Shown: positions 31,583 to 45,696 of the stretch, in pieces
Layout of the letters: each line of letters begins with the position of its first letter
How positions within the stretch are numbered: position 1 is the first letter of the stretch
Source of the DNA: Parapedobacter tibetensis
Lineage (GTDB): Bacteria > Bacteroidota > Bacteroidia > Sphingobacteriales > Sphingobacteriaceae
Reading direction: 5' to 3'
DNA: 64,000 nucleotides
Assembly (NCBI RefSeq): GCF_024704835.1
Contig: NZ_JAMXBE010000001.1
Coordinates: 248,001 to 312,000, forward strand
Notes under the pieces: generated by a model
What the model was told of the DNA's origin: nothing
The model's database searches: none
The model's input: only the letters and a program-made list of their open reading frames with translations
Program-made: the position numbers and the translations under genes

Positions 31583-31605
31583 GTTCTATGTTCTGTCAAT
31601 ATTTG

Positions 31606-31676
31606 CACGGGCACCAGGATTCGAACCCAGATCAAAGGTTTTGGAGACCTCTATTCTACCATTGAACTATGCCCGT
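31606..31676 (-). tRNA. tRNA-Trp (CCA)
   Basis: 71 bases. Acceptor ACGGGCA pairs with TGCCCGT, the anticodon loop reads TCTCCAAAA with anticodon CCA, and the T-loop GTTCGAATC is intact. Discriminator G, as expected for tRNA-Trp. The 3' CCA is not encoded. Located between tuf and secE. Confidence 0.95.
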
Positions 31677-31698
31677 GTAAGTGTTATTGTATTAGACA

Positions 31699-31736
31699 CG
31701 ATTAGCTAATCAGCTGGCTCGCTGATTAGCTAATCG
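31699..31736. repeat. Perfect 16-bp inverted repeat made of two palindromes, between tuf and tRNA-Trp
   Basis: CGATTAGCTAATCAGC and GCTGATTAGCTAATCG are perfect complements around the 6-base loop TGGCTC. Each arm also contains GATTAGCTAATC, which is itself palindromic, so the element is simultaneously a direct and an inverted repeat. It lies just after the tuf-upstream side of tRNA-Trp and lacks a T-tract. Confidence 0.75.
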
Positions 31737-31769
31737 GTTATGGAATAACAATCATCCCAAGGGGACTGA

Positions 31770-32957
31770 TTACTTAAGAATCTCAGTCACCTGTCCGGCA
31801 CCTACAGTCCTACCACCCTCACGGATAGCGAAACGAAGGCCTTTTTCCATTGCGATTGCGTTAATCAATTTCACTGTAATTGTAACGTTATCACCTGGCA
31901 TTACCATTTCTACACCATCTGGCAAGGCGATTTCGCCTGTCACATCTGTGGTACGGAAATAGAATTGTGGACGGTATTTGTTGAAGAACGGCGTGTGACG
32001 GCCACCTTCTGCTTTTGACAATACATATACCTCAGCCTTGAACTCGGTGTGCGGAGTTACCGAACCGGGTTTGCAGATAACCATACCACGGCGGATATCG
32101 GTTTTCTCAATACCACGCAACAACAAACCTACGTTATCACCAGCTTCGCCGTAATCCAAAATCTTACGGAACATTTCGACACCAGTAACAACTGATTTCA
32201 AGTTATCAGCACCCATACCCAGTATTTCCACCTGATCTCCAGAGTTGATTACACCACGCTCGATACGTCCTGTAGCTACAGTACCACGACCAGTGATGGA
32301 AAATACGTCTTCGATAGGCATCAAGAATGGAAGCTCAGTCAACCGTGGAGGAATGGGAATATGCTCATCTACTGCATCCATCAATTCCATGATTTTGTCT
32401 ACCCATTCAGTTTCGCCGTTCAAACCACCAAGAGCAGAACCACGAATCACAGGGATATCATCACCAGGGTATTCGTAGAATGACAATAACTCGCGGATTT
32501 CCATTTCAACCAAGTCCAATAACTCAGGGTCATCTACCAAGTCTACTTTATTCATGAAAACCACTAACGCAGGTACACCCACTTGGCGAGCCAAGAGGAT
32601 GTGCTCCCGTGTTTGAGGCATCGGGCCATCAGTAGCGGCCACAACGATGATGGCACCATCCATTTGTGCAGCACCAGTAACCATGTTTTTTACATAGTCA
32701 GCGTGACCAGGACAGTCAACGTGTGCATAGTGGCGACTTGCTGTCGAATACTCAACGTGTGCAGTATTAATAGTGATACCACGCTCTTTTTCTTCAGGAG
32801 CAGAGTCAATCGAGTCAAAAGAACGAGCTTCTGAAAGCCCTTTGTCTGACAATACTTTTGTAATTGCGGCGGTAGTCGTTGTTTTACCGTGGTCTACGTG
32901 ACCGATCGTACCAATGTTTAAGTGAGGTTTACTGCGGTCAAATTTCTCTTTTGCCAT
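31770..32957 (-). CDS. tuf: Elongation factor Tu
   Basis: 395 residues. All GTPase motifs are present: GHVDHGKTT (G1), RGITINTAH (G2), [12 protein letters not shown] (G3), NKVDLVDD (G4) and GSALGGLNG (G5 region). Domains 2 and 3 are complete and end in [14 protein letters not shown]. It delivers aminoacyl-tRNA to the ribosome. Only one tuf copy lies in this window. It is preceded by four tRNA genes as in the E. coli tufB locus and followed by tRNA-Trp and secE. Confidence 0.98.
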
Positions 32958-33027
32958 GTTTTATGCGAATTAGTAATTTAAAATTTTTAGTTGTTATGCT
33001 ATTTTCAATTAAAATAGTACCCTTACG

Positions 33028-33099
<72 letters not shown>

Positions 33100-33176
33100 T
33101 TTTGTGCTTACAATCCAATCCCTGTCAATATACCGAACTTGAGCGGTTTGACAGAGTATTTGACCAACACATGATG

Positions 33177-33249
33177 AGCGGAAGACGGGTCTCGAACCCG
33201 CAACCTATAGCTTGGAAGGCTATCGCTCTACCAATTGAGCTACTTCCGC
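33177..33249 (-). tRNA. tRNA-Gly (TCC)
   Basis: 73 bases. Acceptor GCGGAAG/CTTCCGC, anticodon stem ATAGC/GCTAT with loop CTTCCAA, anticodon TCC, T-loop GTTCGAGAC. No encoded CCA. Confidence 0.95.
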
Positions 33250-33254
33250 TTTTC

Positions 33255-33315
33255 TGATTTTAGGCTTACGATTTTAGATTTATTAGTCCATCGTAAATCT
33301 TCCAATCTAAAATCA
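33255..33315. repeat. Imperfect long hairpin between tRNA-Gly and tRNA-Tyr
   Basis: Outer arms TGATTTTAG (33255-33263) and CTAAAATCA (33307-33315) are perfectly complementary, and an inner pair TTACGAT/ATCGTAA extends the stem. GATTTTAG also occurs twice as a direct repeat. AT-rich, with no open frame. Confidence 0.6.
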
Positions 33316-33321
33316 ATATTG

Positions 33322-33402
33322 TGGGGGGAGAAGGATTCGAACCTTCGAAGCCGAAGCAACGGATTTACAGTCCGTCCCATTTGACCGCTCTGGAATCCCC
33401 CC
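33322..33402 (-). tRNA. tRNA-Tyr (GTA)
   Basis: 81 bases, class II with an extra arm. Acceptor GGGGGGA/TCCCCCC, anticodon loop ACTGTAAAT with anticodon GTA, T-loop GTTCGAATC, discriminator A. No encoded CCA. Confidence 0.95.
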
Positions 33403-33409
33403 TACTTAG

Positions 33410-33482
<73 letters not shown>

Positions 33483-39915: not shown

Positions 39916-40392
39916 TCAATACTTGATCTTGAAATCCTCCTTGGCCTGCCCGTAGTGGAAGAACACCAAGCCAAGGTGGAATAGATCGATCGTAACGGTC
40001 ACATCTGGTTTGGTTTTCATGGATCGCCAAAGCCGTTTCATGCTCGCATTACAGTATATACCGCTCAAAACTAGCACGCTCCCCAGATGCAATTGAGGCC
40101 AAAGTAGCTGAAGTTGGTGGGATGTCGTTTCGGTGTTTTTTCCTTCAATAAGGATGAAATCCAATTGTCCTGTGGGCAACTGGTCACCCAACTTATATAT
40201 TTGTTTGGGTTTAATCCATGCTGTCAGTCGAGCCGTTAGCCGTTTGACCTTATCCTGTGCCTCATTTGATCGTCGCTTAGCATAAACCACTTCATCCACC
40301 AAGCAATACACGAAAGGCGAATGTGTACCATGTCTTGTTTTGGATGACAGGAAGTGCATAAAGTAATCAAGGTAAAAGCGCCATGAATGCAT
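39916..40392 (-). CDS. Truncated class I methyltransferase-like protein lacking the SAM-binding core
   Basis: 158 residues. The N-terminus (FLSSKTRHGTHSPFVYCLVDEVVYA) and the C-terminus (VTVTIDLFHLGLVFFHYGQAKEDF) match the two ends of a Bacteroidota SAM-dependent methyltransferase family that is normally about 240-260 residues. Between them IKPKQIYKLGD, where ILELGT would be motif I, runs almost directly into LDFILIEGKN, so most of the Rossmann core is missing. The frame is intact with no stop or frameshift. The open frame extends to 40431, but homologues begin near MHSWRF. It is the last gene of the sigma/FecR operon. Methyl transfer is unlikely; a structural role or decay are both possible. 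Confidence 0.65.
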   Translation of the reverse strand: MHSWRFYLDYFMHFLSSKTRHGTHSPFVYCLVDEVVYAKRRSNEAQDKVKRLTARLTAWIKPKQIYKLGDQLPTGQLDFILIEGKNTETTSHQLQLLWPQLHLGSVLVLSGIYCNASMKRLWRSMKTKPDVTVTIDLFHLGLVFFHYGQAKEDFKIKY

Positions 40393-40443
40393 GCTGGCAA
40401 AGATAAGGGAAACTACCCTCATGTGCTTCATGCAATGGGGTTT

Positions 40444-41382
40444 TCATTTCCACCTGCGATGCGACCACAACCAATAAGTGGGATTTTTGTTGACGGTTTG
40501 CTGCAGCAATTCCCCAAAACATTGGGTTATCTCGCCTTCTACCGTATCTTTAGCCTTATCGGTAATCAAGGAAAAATACACATCCCAACCATCGTCGGGT
40601 TTCCTTTCCAGTTCGATATAAAAAACCACTGCATTGATGGCTTTGGCCAACTTTTCAGCACCATCAAACATGGAAGTAGTTTGGTTCAGGAACTCCAACT
40701 GACATCCCTTATTCGAACCTGGGAATTGATCGGCGATAAAGAGGTTGAGGGAGACATCATTCTTCGCCTTCACCAATTGCCTTAAGGCTTTCCCTGCGGG
40801 AATGAGCTGCATCCCAAACCTCGACCTAATGCGCCTCACAATGCCGCATAGCATCGTATTAGACAGTGGTTTATACAACGCATTTACCGGAAATGGAAGT
40901 TTGCTGGGAAGGATGTTTAGGCTTTCCCAATTACCATAATGACCAAGTAAGGCTACCATGGGCCTTCCCTCGGCTTGATACTGGTTTATTAAATCCATGT
41001 TGGTTATTCGAATCTTGGCAGCCAACTGTCTCTTACTAATGGAAATCGATTTGATAACCTCTACCACTAGACAGGAAAAATGCCAATAAAATCCCTTTGC
41101 CAACGCATGTATTTCCGAATAAGGTTTATCGGGAAAAGAACGCGACAGGTTTTGAAGCACCACATGGTAACGGTACCGCATAATGGAGTAAGCCAAAAAA
41201 TAACAGCAGCGGCCGATGGTGGCTCGTAATAAAGCGTATGGAAGTAGGCTGAGCAGTGTAATGGGAATCTGCATGGCGGTATAAAATGTCGCTTTTAAAA
41301 GAGCCATCACATGTGAGCGCCAATCGGCTGAATAACTTTGGCTTTTGTTCAAGCCCTTGATGTATAGTTGTGAAACATTCAT
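40444..41382 (-). CDS. Lysophospholipid/lipid A acyltransferase (LpxL/HtrB family)
   Basis: 312 residues. An N-terminal membrane helix (FYTAMQIPITLLSLLPYALL) is followed by the HxxxxE catalytic motif GHYGNWE at about residue 148 and the conserved FPVNALYKPLSN and FIADQFPG segments. The family adds the late acyl chains to lipid A or to ornithine-type lipids at the inner membrane. The start follows the previous stop as TAAAATG, so translation is coupled; an upstream ATG at 41406 would overlap that gene. The position inside a sigma/anti-sigma operon suggests regulated acylation. Confidence 0.85.
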   Translation of the reverse strand: MNVSQLYIKGLNKSQSYSADWRSHVMALLKATFYTAMQIPITLLSLLPYALLRATIGRCCYFLAYSIMRYRYHVVLQNLSRSFPDKPYSEIHALAKGFYWHFSCLVVEVIKSISISKRQLAAKIRITNMDLINQYQAEGRPMVALLGHYGNWESLNILPSKLPFPVNALYKPLSNTMLCGIVRRIRSRFGMQLIPAGKALRQLVKAKNDVSLNLFIADQFPGSNKGCQLEFLNQTTSMFDGAEKLAKAINAVVFYIELERKPDDGWDVYFSLITDKAKDTVEGEITQCFGELLQQTVNKNPTYWLWSHRRWK

Positions 41383-41383
41383 T

Positions 41384-43051
41384 TTACCAGCGATAAAGCA
41401 ACCCACTATATATACCCATGTACAGGGCTTTTCCCGTCTCCGTATTATGGTACCATTTCCATCCGGGGATAACGGAGGATACCGTAGCTCCTTTATCCGG
41501 ATAGGTATAGTTAACCGTCGGCCCAGCTATGATACCCAAGTGCCGCCCCAAGTATACTTGCGAAAGCAGCCTGAATGATAATCTGGGCTCGCTATGTTTC
41601 TTGAAATCCGTGCTGGCCCGGTTGACCATTTCGGCATCAAGGTTGAATGGTCCCCGCCGCAGAATATGGACTCCTATTCCTGTTTCGATAGCGTATTTCA
41701 TTGGGTTTCCATTCAAGTAATAGCCTGCACCAATCAGCCCATACAACACGCGGCCACCAGAGCGGAAAGCAACCTGTGCCATGCTCGATTCATCCATTGC
41801 AACAGAAAGCCCTTTGCTTCCTTGTTTAATAAGATTGATAAGTCCTATGGGGTAGTCACTGCTATCGGCCATATTTACCAAGCCCGCCAACTGGATGCCT
41901 TTAACTTTACCGGCAATATTCACGCCACCCGCAATCTGATTACCCGTTTCGCCAACGGATTTGTTTATTACACCAGTGACCTGTATACCGCGTATATTCT
42001 CCGCAACATTAAACATGCCGGATAGTTGTACTCCTTTTACATCGCTACCCCAATTGCCCAACCCGGCCAGCTGCATCCCGGAAACGCTGTGCATGACGAT
42101 ATTAGATGCTCCTGCCAGCTGCAGCCCTTGGGCATGGCGGCCCACCACATTGAATAAACCTGCTATTTGGAGGTCTCTAGCATCCTTTTGATTGATATTG
42201 AACCCGCCAGCAATCTCAACCCCATTTACCCCTGCGGTATACCCACCGATGAGATTCAGCGATACTTGGTTGACCACCTGGCTATTGAACATGCCATGCG
42301 AACTTAATCCAGGTGTGACGGACACTTGATAGGGACTATATGCAAAAAATCCTCCAAGGTTGACGCTTTGGATGCGTTGCTTCGAACTGATGAAAAATCG
42401 GCCGAATGCCGTACCTTCCAACCCACTGCCCTCGCTATCATCTGGATAATATCTATAACGGCTCCATTTATTTTTCGGTTTCACTTGCACGGGAGGTAGC
42501 AACATTACCGTGGTATCTCGGTAGTTTTCCTTGCTAATGGTAAGCCATATGGTTTCGCCCGGTCGTTTGATTGTCAATTTGAAATTCCCCCCAGGATCGG
42601 AAAGCGTAGATACTAATATGTTCCGTTCATAAATGCTAGCAAGATGCACACCCTTGTCATTGCTTGCATCTTTGATTTTTCCTTCCACTACCAGGGGGTT
42701 CCCCCGATCTTTCTCAACGTGAAAGGTCAATTCCATGGAGCCAGGTGCGTAGCGGATGATGACATATCCGGGGCTCTCCTTAAATTCATAATCACGGCCA
42801 AGGGTACTTTCCAGGAAATCCACAAGTCTACCCCGGAAATCCGATAACGTAATGACACTATCGGCCGCTATAGCGTTACTGTTATAGGCAAAATAGAACC
42901 CTTGGTTTTTGCTGATATCATCCAATAAATCTCCAACACGTTGATTGCCGATATCCTCAATGGTGATTTCACGCATAAGGTAGTTCTGTGCTGTGCATAC
43001 CGCTGTTAATGCAAGCGGTGAACAGGTTAAAAACAACCTAACAAATAGCAT
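41384..43051 (-). CDS. STN-domain surface protein with carboxypeptidase-like and LA_2272 repeat domains
   Basis: About 555 residues. Signal peptide (LFVRLFLTCSPLALTAVCTA), then an STN (secretin/TonB N-terminal) domain (ITIEDIGNQRVGDLLDDISKNQGFYFAYNS), a CarboxypepD_reg-like domain around VEGKIKDASNDKGVHLASIY, and from about residue 230 a series of roughly 20-residue repeats (GLQLAGASNIV, GMQLAGLGNWG, GVQLSGMFNVA, GIQLAGLVNMA), the LA_2272-type surface repeat. The C-terminus ends in tryptophan after aromatic strands. It stands where a SusC-type receptor is normally found behind FecR, and lacks TonB-receptor plug and barrel motifs. Confidence 0.75.
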   Translation of the reverse strand: MLFVRLFLTCSPLALTAVCTAQNYLMREITIEDIGNQRVGDLLDDISKNQGFYFAYNSNAIAADSVITLSDFRGRLVDFLESTLGRDYEFKESPGYVIIRYAPGSMELTFHVEKDRGNPLVVEGKIKDASNDKGVHLASIYERNILVSTLSDPGGNFKLTIKRPGETIWLTISKENYRDTTVMLLPPVQVKPKNKWSRYRYYPDDSEGSGLEGTAFGRFFISSKQRIQSVNLGGFFAYSPYQVSVTPGLSSHGMFNSQVVNQVSLNLIGGYTAGVNGVEIAGGFNINQKDARDLQIAGLFNVVGRHAQGLQLAGASNIVMHSVSGMQLAGLGNWGSDVKGVQLSGMFNVAENIRGIQVTGVINKSVGETGNQIAGGVNIAGKVKGIQLAGLVNMADSSDYPIGLINLIKQGSKGLSVAMDESSMAQVAFRSGGRVLYGLIGAGYYLNGNPMKYAIETGIGVHILRRGPFNLDAEMVNRASTDFKKHSEPRLSFRLLSQVYLGRHLGIIAGPTVNYTYPDKGATVSSVIPGWKWYHNTETGKALYMGIYSGLLYRW

Positions 43052-43090
43052 GTTGAAGGAAGGGATTATGGTCATTCTGAGTGATCTGAA

Positions 43091-44065
43091 CTATTTCAAT
43101 ATGATATTGTTTCCCTGTTTCTCCACGGTTATCCTCAATGTCTTGGCAATGAGATGGAGCATATCTTCCAAGGTATTCTGGTGTAAGGTTGTGGTCATCG
43201 GCAAGTTACGGATTTTATCGTTAACTATGATGATTTCTACGCCATAAGCTTCTCTCAAGACTTCTACAACACGCCAAAGTGGCGTATTATCCAACACAAA
43301 CTGATTGCTTACATAATAATTATGAAGTAGGTCATCCACCATACCTTCGTCAAACTGTTGGGTTTGCGTATTGATCGTTACCTTTTGTCGTGGCCCCAAT
43401 TCCACCATCCTACTCAATCCTTCCACTTTTACTTGTCCGCTTTCTACGATAACCTCCGTCTCATCTCCTTTCCGTTTTACGTGGAATGAAGTACCGAGAA
43501 CGGTGACGGTTACTTTCCCCGACTCGATGACAAACGGTTTATTGTGGTTTGGCGCTACCCTAAAAAACACCTCCCCCTCACGCAGTTCAGCCAGCCTTTT
43601 CCCCTGGAAAGGACCTTGGGAAAACCGCAACGTAGCATATTTGTTTAGCGTGATTATTGAACCATCGGCAAGGGTGTCTGTATTTACCGCGTTGGCTGTT
43701 TCATAGGTCGATCCATATCGTTGGCTCCCATTTTGCACCAGGAAGTAATAGCCAATAAGGCTGGCTCCTGACACGAAGATGAGTGTGGCGGCAATGCGCA
43801 ACCAACCTAGACGCCGGATCAGACCTTTAGATTGCCAGCTGAGGGAGGGATTTACACGTTCCCGCCTTTGCATAAAGCGCAGCCATGCTTCATGTTCATC
43901 CACATCACTTTTGCCCGCGAGCGTTTGACTAGCATCCCATACCAATCGGAGTTGTGAATAATGCTTCTCGTTATCTGGGTGCGCCGCAATCCACTTGCGA
44001 ACCGCGGCGGTTTCCTCCTCGCTCGTTTCCTTCAGCAAATATTTTGTCAATAAAACTTCATCCAT
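43091..44065 (-). CDS. FecR family anti-sigma factor (FecR plus DUF4974)
   Basis: 324 residues. The N-terminal cytoplasmic part (LLTKYLLKETSEEETAAVRKWI) binds sigma. One membrane helix follows (IAATLIFVSGASLIGYYFLV), then the periplasmic FecR domain (LADGSIITLNKYATLRF; REGEVFFRVAPNHNKPFVIESG; VTVLGTSFHVK) and a C-terminal DUF4974 domain (VLDNTPLWRVVEVLREAYGVEI). It transmits an outer-membrane signal to the ECF sigma factor. The ATG at 44065 is four bases after the sigma gene stop; an upstream start at 44089 would overlap it. Confidence 0.92.
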   Translation of the reverse strand: MDEVLLTKYLLKETSEEETAAVRKWIAAHPDNEKHYSQLRLVWDASQTLAGKSDVDEHEAWLRFMQRRERVNPSLSWQSKGLIRRLGWLRIAATLIFVSGASLIGYYFLVQNGSQRYGSTYETANAVNTDTLADGSIITLNKYATLRFSQGPFQGKRLAELREGEVFFRVAPNHNKPFVIESGKVTVTVLGTSFHVKRKGDETEVIVESGQVKVEGLSRMVELGPRQKVTINTQTQQFDEGMVDDLLHNYYVSNQFVLDNTPLWRVVEVLREAYGVEIIIVNDKIRNLPMTTTLHQNTLEDMLHLIAKTLRITVEKQGNNIILK

Positions 44066-44069
44066 AGCT

Positions 44070-44636
44070 TCATATAATGGGTAGTACAATAATCAGAAAA
44101 GGCAGGAAATCCGACAGCTTCAGCCGCAATAACTTCAATGCCTTTCCCATGTGGCTTTCCACGGTTTTAAGGGAAATACCCAGTTTGTCTGCGATTTCCT
44201 GGTATTTCAGTTCCTCAAACCGACTAAGTTGGAAAACAGTGCGGCATTTTTCAGGAAGCTGCCGGAGTGCCTCTTTTAAGTGACGACGCAGTTCCTTATC
44301 TTCCATATCCATCTCCGTTTGTTTTTGCTTATATTCAACCACCGCTCCCTCCATATATTTTTGTTGAACCTTTTTATGTTTCAGGTAATTCAGGCTCTCA
44401 TGGTATACTGATTTATACAGATATGCCCGTAACGAAGTATGTATTGACAACCGTTCCCTGTTTTCCCATAGCTTCAAAAAAACGGTTTGTACAATTTCTT
44501 CTGCCATGCTTTCATCCTGTAGGATGGTATACGAATAGGCATGTAATGCCTTGAAATTGCTTTTAAATGCTTCTTCAAAAGCAGTCTCATGACCGAGGTT
44601 TACTGGCATTTCATTTTTGGCCAAATTTACTTCCAT
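44070..44636 (-). CDS. ECF RNA polymerase sigma-70 factor
   Basis: 188 residues. Sigma region 2 (FKSNFKALHAYSYTILQDESMAEEIVQTVFLKLWEN) and region 4 (LPEKCRTVFQLSRFEELKYQEIADKLGISLKTVESHMGKAL) are present, with the short linker typical of ECF factors of the Bacteroidota FecR-paired group. It is the first gene of the five-gene operon. I see no TAnnTTTG promoter upstream, which fits autoregulation by an ECF-specific promoter. Confidence 0.92.
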   Translation of the reverse strand: MEVNLAKNEMPVNLGHETAFEEAFKSNFKALHAYSYTILQDESMAEEIVQTVFLKLWENRERLSIHTSLRAYLYKSVYHESLNYLKHKKVQQKYMEGAVVEYKQKQTEMDMEDKELRRHLKEALRQLPEKCRTVFQLSRFEELKYQEIADKLGISLKTVESHMGKALKLLRLKLSDFLPFLIIVLPII

Positions 44637-44824
44637 TTAGCGTTATACATATAATCATTTCCTCCCTTTCCCCTGTTCTATCACGTTTTCATGAGCTATG
44701 ACAACTTAGCTAGTCTTTACCCTCATTCAAAAGATTTTTTTATTTCTTGATAAAGAGGAATGCCTCTTACGGCATATGTGACTACCTTCGTGGGTAAAGG
44801 TAAACGTAATCGGCAAGTTTTTTG

Positions 44825-44832
44825 TAACTTTG
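44825..44832 (+). promoter_or_regulatory. -7 box TAACTTTG at the start of the transglutaminase-like gene
   Basis: Perfect TAnnTTTG ending six bases before an ATG at 44839. The predicted RNA start coincides with or touches the start codon, so the mRNA may be leaderless. Confidence 0.5.
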
Positions 44833-44838
44833 TGTATC

Positions 44839-45696
44839 ATGATGAATGAGGTAGAATTAGATTCGTTAATCAAATTGCTCGACGATCCGGATGCCGAAGT
44901 ATTCCAGCATGTGGAGCAAAAACTGATTACCATGGGACCAGCCGTCATCACACGGTTGGAGTCTGTGTGGGAGCAGTCTTTTGACATGCTGTTGCAGGCA
45001 CGTATCGAAAACCTCATTCATAAGATACAATTTGAAGATGTGCTTCAAGAACTGGAACTTTGGAAGTTGAGCGGTTCATTCGATTTATTGCAGGGCCTAA
45101 TTATTGTGAACAAATACCAGTATCCCGATATGGATGAGCAGAAAGTCATCAACCAGATCGAAGCCATCAAACGGGATGCTTGGCTGGAGATGATTTACAG
45201 CATGAGCGCAGTAGAAAAGGTGCGTCTGCTCAACAACATCATTTACAATGCCCATGGATTTTCGGGCAATACCAGCAACTACCACGACCCGCAAAATTCT
45301 TACATTGGCCAGGTATTGGAAACCCGCAAAGGCAATCCCATTCTTTTGGCATGTATCTACAGCATCATTGCCCAGAAACTTGACATTCCTATCTATGGGG
45401 TAAACCTACCTAAGCATTTCATTCTGGCTTATACGGAAGACCATACCCCGGTGGAAAACAAACATGGAATCTTGTTTTATATCAATGCATTCAACCGCGG
45501 CCAAATATTTGGCCGGCATGATGTCATTGCATTCCTCAAACAGCTCAACCTCTCCCCTAGTGATAATTTTATCATGCCGTGCAGCAATCTCGATATTATC
45601 GCACGGGTATTGCGCAATTTAGTAGCCGCCTATTCACAGGCCAGCAATGCCAGCAAAACGGAGGAAATCAATAGGATGTTGGATCTCGTTTCATAA
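44839..45696 (+). CDS. Transglutaminase-like SirB1 family protein
   Basis: 285 residues. The second half contains RKGNPILLACIYSIIAQKLDIPIYGVNLPKHFILAY, the conserved SirB1/transglutaminase-like motif. The usual catalytic cysteine position carries no clear nucleophile apart from the Cys in LLACIYS. The N-terminal 100 residues are helical, HEAT-like (LDSLIKLLDDPDAEVFQHVEQKL). Cytoplasmic. Enzymatic activity has not been shown for the family. The start is one of two adjacent ATG codons at 44839/44842. Convergent with the next gene, 7 bases apart. Confidence 0.8.
   Translation: MMNEVELDSLIKLLDDPDAEVFQHVEQKLITMGPAVITRLESVWEQSFDMLLQARIENLIHKIQFEDVLQELELWKLSGSFDLLQGLIIVNKYQYPDMDEQKVINQIEAIKRDAWLEMIYSMSAVEKVRLLNNIIYNAHGFSGNTSNYHDPQNSYIGQVLETRKGNPILLACIYSIIAQKLDIPIYGVNLPKHFILAYTEDHTPVENKHGILFYINAFNRGQIFGRHDVIAFLKQLNLSPSDNFIMPCSNLDIIARVLRNLVAAYSQASNASKTEEINRMLDLVS

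Follow-up and report, generated by a model that had tools for sequence, protein, structure and literature searches.

We identified a putative cell-surface signalling locus in a 64,000-nucleotide stretch (the window; contig C1, 248001-312000) of the genome of the soil bacterium Parapedobacter tibetensis. Five open reading frames (ORFs), all on the minus strand, run from 44636 to 39916. The first encodes an extracytoplasmic function (ECF) sigma factor of the TIGR02985 type (44070..44636; E 5e-52). Four nucleotides (nt) downstream lies the gene for a 324-amino-acid (aa) FecR anti-sigma factor (43091..44065; FecR 2e-17, FecR_C 6e-13) whose N-terminus is cytoplasmic and which has a single membrane helix, identified by eye, and FecR and FecR_C (STN-like) domains. 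The third gene (41384..43075, alternative start 43051) encodes a predicted outer-membrane sensor of 563 aa that combines STN, CarbopepD_reg, beta-solenoid and eight-strand barrel regions. It is separated from the FecR gene by 39 nt, counted from its second ATG, and from the fourth gene, an LpxL/LpxM-like acyltransferase (40444..41382; Lip_A_acyltrans 3e-34), by a single nucleotide in the junction TAA-A-ATG. The fifth ORF (39916..40431, alternative start 40392), a putative methyltransferase relic shortened to 171 aa, follows after 51 nt, again counted from its second ATG. An earlier note, made from the sequence alone, had described this order and these four gaps, and the ORF coordinates confirm them; its assignments of the sigma factor, FecR and the acyltransferase are borne out by the profile matches given above. 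A predicted promoter of the sigma gene, GGGTA-N15-GTC (44700..44722, minus strand), starts 86 nt upstream of the sigma ATG.

Comparison of loci indicates that the ECF sigma factor, FecR and the STN protein are an old, conserved module. Of 30 named Bacteroidota loci, 27 have the three genes on the same strand; in two others the STN gene is convergent (Pedobacter sp. SYP-B3415 and Mucilaginibacter dorajii), and one locus ends at its contig edge within the module. By our own count, the three proteins are encoded side by side in 17 of 18 loci inspected from the top matches of the search for relatives, 7 of these 18 being the same congeners as in the named set; the exception is a locus with an STN-less relative. 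Conservation of the sigma-FecR-STN order marks the cluster as more than a chance arrangement. Searches with the 563-aa protein found matches in 23 of 60 genomes (its own included), some of which are SusC N-termini only, and its profile matched 129 of the 296 genomes of the phylum, many just via a SusC-like N-terminus or the repeat part. Of the co-occurrence of all five families, which the earlier note proposed to search for, the sigma-FecR-STN order holds; the acyltransferase is present in only 6 of the 30 named loci, and the fifth gene appears to be a resident neighbour.

Two of the named loci belong to Cyclobacteriaceae of the order Cytophagales. Their modules, in Lunatibacter and Pleomorphovibrio (L121, L133), are 40-43% identical to that of the window, which hints at transfer between orders. 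At three loci of other genera (L083, L086, L087), a gene for a head-GIN (DUF2807) lipoprotein lies between an STN-less solenoid/barrel gene and the sigma gene.

Domains and predicted structure of the sensor protein

The first ~190 residues of the third gene product are related to the N-termini of long ORFs, and the two such ORFs tested in the window's genome are SusC/RagA receptors (TIGR04056, E 8e-270 and 3e-255). The STN assignment is based on this homology and on the secondary structure of the folded model, and places the STN-like segment at about residues 34-112 (42740..42976; all coordinates in this section are on the minus strand). Pfam and curated family scans gave no match at E<=1 to the STN and LA_2272 models, nor at E<=1 to Plug and TonB receptor models. 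A CarbopepD_reg-like domain follows at about residues 128-193 (42497..42694), as suggested by a weak Pfam match to CarbopepD_reg_2 (E 4.5e-4; 20.6 bits, cut-off 32.2) and by a profile comparison in which the SusC homologue 9hfj matches weakly with its N-terminal domain (E 0.016).

An AlphaFold2 model of the sensor, made with 31 homologues, has a predicted local distance difference test score (pLDDT) of 78.5 and a predicted template modelling score of 0.52, and contains STN-like and strand-rich N-terminal domains, the repeat region and eight C-terminal strands. The latter (residues 418-563; 41387..41824) are predicted to form an eight-strand outer-membrane barrel, since they match the designed barrel 6x9z (Z 16.4, 111 residues, root-mean-square deviation (rmsd) 1.7) and, in the structural match (VIA), the barrels of OprF (Z 16.0, 122 residues, rmsd 2.3) and OmpA (Z 14.0, 117 residues, rmsd 2.6). 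The GxQxAGxxN repeats lie at about residues 267-410 (41846..42277). Folded alone, the repeat region reached a pLDDT of 84.4 and resembles the beta-helical antifreeze protein 3p4g (Z 15.1, 164 residues, rmsd 2.1) and HxuA (Z 13.7, 150 residues, rmsd 2.5). Helices of the GlmU and LpxD kind, which we take to be left-handed, as we take that of 3p4g to be right-handed, scored Z 14.6 but with an rmsd near 9.5; the Z values of the two hands being tied, the choice was made by rmsd and the left-handed helix was rejected. Foldseek searches of the PDB gave no match at E<=0.001 for either the full-length or the repeat-region model.

Among the 31 homologues, the repeat region measures 148-149, 164-165, 180 or 195-197 residues, that is, it varies in 15-residue steps, single steps included, which fits a solenoid in which each turn is one repeat. 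These length steps, together with the match to closed eight-strand barrels, led us to reject a single larger barrel built from the repeats and the C-terminus. We predict that the repeats form a beta-solenoid of 15-residue repeats and that the barrel is a separate C-terminal domain. Small outer-membrane barrels keep both ends in the periplasm, and the solenoid is therefore probably periplasmic. SusC/RagA receptors share the homologous N-terminal region of ~190 residues with the sensor but differ in its C-terminal two thirds, where the plug and large TonB-type barrel of SusC are predicted to be replaced by the solenoid and an OmpA-like barrel.

The earlier note had read this gene as an STN/LA_2272 barrel-like repeat protein. 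Its STN, recognized by homology to SusC, and the presence of a barrel hold up, as does the point that a SusC-type STN on a non-TonB outer-membrane protein stands beside sigma/FecR genes; this arrangement is conserved across Sphingobacteriaceae. The LA_2272 part does not, in that the repeats are predicted to be a solenoid apart from the barrel and the curated LA_2272 repeat model NF047436 (25-bit cut-off) fails to match. LA_2272 repeat proteins do have similar G-x-Q..G..N repeats, and a distant profile link (probability 79) connects the sensor with a protein of the genome that does match this model. A 222-aa protein matching NF047436 is encoded on contig C23 of the same genome (L147:4945-5613).

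Promoter signature and predicted regulon

The pattern GGGTA-N15-GTC emerged from the aligned regions upstream of the sigma gene in seven Parapedobacter (window included), and in the six congeners it starts 34 nt upstream of that gene. Scanning with spacers of 12 to 20 revealed the motif before other genes of the neighbourhood, always with a spacer of 15. Counted within 200 base pairs (bp) upstream at 42 loci, many from close relatives, it precedes the sigma gene in 25 of 39 cases, the gene of an OMP_b-brl_2 barrel in 21 of 24, the acyltransferase in 4 of 6 and an STN-less solenoid/barrel protein in 5 of 9. None of the FecR genes (0/39), STN genes (0/40), other sigma genes (0/14) or methyltransferase genes (0/5) carries it, and only 1 of the 343 remaining genes does. 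Pooled, this amounts to 55 of 78 genes of the module families (30 of 39 without sigma) versus 1 of 441 others; within Parapedobacter alone the figures are 14 of 17 versus 0 of 96. Spacers of 11-14 and 16-19 yielded no module gene and 4 matches among the 343 other genes. The sole match among other genes at the spacer of 15 is a 776-aa CarbopepD_reg gene (L081:11041-13371), divergent from the sigma gene and with its own motif.

An extended pattern, TAAGGGTA-N14-TGTCW, has 22 sites in nine Parapedobacter genomes versus 1 when reversed; summed over spacers 8-20, the count is 51, of which 29 fall at the 12 other spacings, versus 26 for the reversed pattern. The genes downstream of the 22 sites are sigma (7), OMP_b-brl_2 (2), acyltransferase (4), STN-less protein (4) and PepSY-like (4), one site having none. 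Seventeen thus precede the sigma, OMP_b-brl_2, acyltransferase or STN-less families, including one unlinked acyltransferase. The window's sigma site and the OMP_b-brl_2 site of its genome deviate in their flanks and are missed by this pattern.

In the window's genome, the OMP_b-brl_2 gene lies on contig C8, with the motif starting 52 nt upstream. There (L146:7992-8907), a 72-aa FecR N-terminal domain standing on its own comes after this gene with its sigma motif; it matches about residues 1-73 of the window's FecR at 45-47%, has no further FecR match behind it and may be a free anti-sigma domain or a relic. The motif also led to a further predicted regulon member, a PepSY_like lipoprotein of 144-154 aa (Pfam E 5e-23 for one copy; L182:1032-1466, L186, L194, L197, L205 and L206). 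It is present in 6 of 9 Parapedobacter genomes, and the motif stands before 6 of its 7 matches, 2 of them new; on contig C17 of Parapedobacter lycopersici (L206) its gene lies directly behind a second sigma-FecR-STN module.

The acyltransferase belongs to the Lip_A_acyltrans family (119 bits against a Pfam cut-off of 22.3), and the HX4E motif (H148/E153) is invariant in six aligned sequences, the window's included. In a tree of 25 sequences, the module-type acyltransferases form one clade with support 97/93, to which neither the housekeeping copy on contig C45 nor a third group belongs. The clade comprises the sequences of the window, P. pyrenivorans, P. luteus, P. indicus, P. defluvii, P. lycopersici, P. 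koreensis and Pedobacter sp. SYP-B3415, the last of unsure placement because it was flagged as a long branch. None was found in the named Sphingobacterium loci, nor was a module-type copy found in P. composti, where the module is present. The position of the gene varies: in Parapedobacter it lies behind the STN or OMP_b-brl_2 gene, except that it is convergent in P. lycopersici and stands alone in P. koreensis, and in SYP-B3415 it lies behind FecR. The motif precedes both the solitary copy of P. koreensis, on another contig, and the copy of P. lycopersici that is convergent to the module. Apparent stops had suggested a broken gene in P. koreensis, which an intact frame of 249 aa rules out.

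Given the motif before it, the acyltransferase is predicted to be a lineage-specific member of the regulon. In P. luteus, P. indicus and P. defluvii, the gap between the STN and acyltransferase genes contains the motif, and in P. pyrenivorans the same gap holds both the motif and an OMP_b-brl_2 gene. From this series we infer that the OMP_b-brl_2 gene was lost from the gap and that in the window the promoter was lost too, leaving the TAA-A-ATG junction. The earlier note's idea of a sensor linked to lipid acylation survives in this form, as predicted sigma control of the acyltransferase through the shared motif, including copies that are convergent or lie on a different contig; the acyltransferase is not a general part of the system but a lineage-specific target. 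Overall, the regulon is predicted to be a small set of envelope genes: the OMP_b-brl_2 barrel, the STN-less solenoid/barrel protein, the LpxL-like acyltransferase and the PepSY-like lipoprotein.

The fifth gene and the insertion site

The methyltransferase-like gene, which the earlier note had counted as a member of the operon, did not hold as such. It matches no family above cut-off (best methyltransferase match E 0.12) and is the genome's only match of a family of ~260 aa with Methyltransf_24 in other genera. The S-adenosylmethionine (AdoMet)-binding motif I and the core that follows are absent in the window and five aligned congeners; two 261-aa relatives keep this core, and the one tested matches Methyltransf_24 at 7e-17. 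The gene is short in all nine Parapedobacter, the window's included. This genus-wide shortening of a conserved single-copy methyltransferase, with the core lost and both ends kept, is seen in the window (39916-40431) and at L091, L092 and L095, and another genus (L100) also has a short form.

At this site, the gene appears to be older than the module. Three congeners lack the module here, and in them the gene is directly divergent from a transglutaminase gene, the two matches lying 33, 51 and 96 bp apart; among three loci of other genera the pair is divergent in two and more than 4 kilobases apart in the third. The adjacency in the congeners with this site empty implies that the module came in between and that the fifth gene is resident. 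In the window, the other flank of the empty site is the Transglut_core2 gene (44830..45696, plus strand), which is not a member of the module. Thus, the fifth gene is a probable passenger, apparently a shortened methyltransferase relic and an old neighbour of the insertion site.

Predictions across the sequence showed no excess over shuffles for sigma70 promoters (14 vs 14.6) or intrinsic terminators (6 vs 5.9). Five minus-strand tRNA genes (Trp, Thr, Gly, Tyr, Thr) lie elsewhere in the window (31605-33482).

Proposed cell-surface signalling and alternative readings

The DNA holds a gene module, a domain swap in the partner protein and a promoter signature of fixed spacing before the sigma gene and envelope genes. 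We consider it fairly probable that these features represent FecI/FecR-type cell-surface signalling with a small envelope regulon and a sensor that is not a TonB-dependent receptor. We read the system as TonB-independent signalling for outer-membrane maintenance, the signal and its direction being conjectural; every mechanistic step beyond the DNA evidence is one that we infer. The sensor would reside in the outer membrane, where its STN would dock on FecR_C and shield it. A change in the outer membrane would release the STN and expose FecR to proteolysis, and the sigma factor would then switch on transcription of the regulon as well as of its own operon. The window's acyltransferase gene would be transcribed from the sigma promoter, and the enzyme may add an acyl chain to lipid A, remodelling the envelope. 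The fifth gene would owe its downstream position solely to the arrival of the module between it and the transglutaminase gene.

The docking step is carried over from the Fox system, in which, according to PMC11637429, the FecR-type factor is kept bound and protected by the STN of its outer-membrane partner as long as the signal is lacking. As described in PMC9249621 and PMC11637429, FecI/FecR/FecA and Fox likewise consist of an ECF sigma factor, a FecR with an STN-like C-terminus and an outer-membrane partner with an N-terminal STN. They differ in that the partner here lacks the plug and TonB-type barrel and in that the predicted targets are envelope rather than uptake genes. Moreover, fecIR is read by sigma70 (PMC9249621), whereas here the sigma gene itself carries the motif. 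Dma anti-sigma factors, as described in PMC13088901, also couple a Bacteroidota ECF sigma factor to a protein reaching the outer membrane, with an envelope output; there one protein spans both membranes, whereas here FecR and the barrel protein are separate genes whose products would meet in the periplasm. The acyltransferase shares family and HX4E motif with the late acyltransferases LpxL/LpxM but differs in its clade and in its predicted regulation by the module.

Several points weigh against our interpretation. The full sensor model is of moderate confidence. The pooled motif counts ignore the kinship of the loci, and only the non-sigma families provide a partly independent test, because the motif was first seen upstream of sigma and all groups had been scanned before its spacing was chosen. 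Fourteen of the 39 sigma genes lack the exact motif: five have a one-base variant, six follow another gene of the module (which in three cases has the motif upstream) and three are unexplained or cut. In the window's genome, the short GGGTA/TTGTC motif is not enriched, with 15 occurrences at the right spacing, ~13 at each of six others and 110 of the reversed pattern over all seven spacings (our own count); the regulon must therefore be small. The gene-less extended site is in this genome, two further short-motif matches inside the window are at chance level, and the window's genome is among those of the nine Parapedobacter searched that lack the PepSY-like gene. Most carriers of the sensor do not have the acyltransferase.

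Alternatively, the STN protein might be cargo only and not a sensor, with the sigma-FecR pair controlling a set of outer-membrane proteins and the signal reaching FecR otherwise. FecR-type factors can be processed without transducer contact (PMC11637429), and STN-less relatives of the third gene are predicted regulon members, so that such proteins would also be an output of the switch. We regard this as improbable, since the STN form accompanies sigma-FecR in 29 of the 30 named loci (the remaining one is cut), is in no case preceded by a motif of its own and retains the SusC-type STN, which is missing from the cargo form. Still less credible is that the acyltransferase hitch-hikes behind the module by chance, outside sigma control: its rarity among the named loci and the missing motif of the window's copy would agree with this, but the motif precedes it in 4 of 6 counted loci and at the solitary P. 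koreensis copy, and one clade is kept with the module across differing gene arrangements.

There is an appreciable chance, short of even, that the acyltransferase acts on a lipid other than lipid A (ornithine lipid, phospholipid or glycolipid), as phosphatidylinositol mannoside acyltransferases are among its solved relatives (E 0.0013) and the genome has a separate housekeeping LpxL-like copy; the best solved relative, a lipid A lauroyl acyltransferase (E 8e-12), and the Lip_A_acyltrans match argue for lipid A. The short gaps on one strand could suggest a five-gene operon with a working methyltransferase, which we find very hard to credit given that this gene is divergent from the transglutaminase gene in three congeners without the module at this site and in two of three other-genus loci, short throughout the genus and devoid of the AdoMet core in all six aligned sequences.

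Beyond TonB-independent signalling, we tentatively speculate, at less than even likelihood, that the module is an outer-membrane homeostasis switch of Sphingobacteriaceae. A SusC signalling N-terminus joined to a solenoid and an OmpA-like barrel would sense the state of the membrane (lipid packing or barrel assembly) and not an imported ligand, and its response would comprise small barrels and a PepSY-like lipoprotein, joined in some lineages by a second lipid A acyltransferase, as a Bacteroidota counterpart of the proteobacterial sigma-E response. A literature search limited to open-licence PMC papers found no publication describing the module or its regulon. With its promoter signature, the predicted regulon is open to direct tests. 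If our reading is correct, FecR-type signalling would not be tied to TonB-dependent uptake, the signalling domain of SusC would be portable, and a group in which the control of outer-membrane stress is little understood would possess a compact regulon and promoter code for remodelling of the envelope, probably of lipid A.

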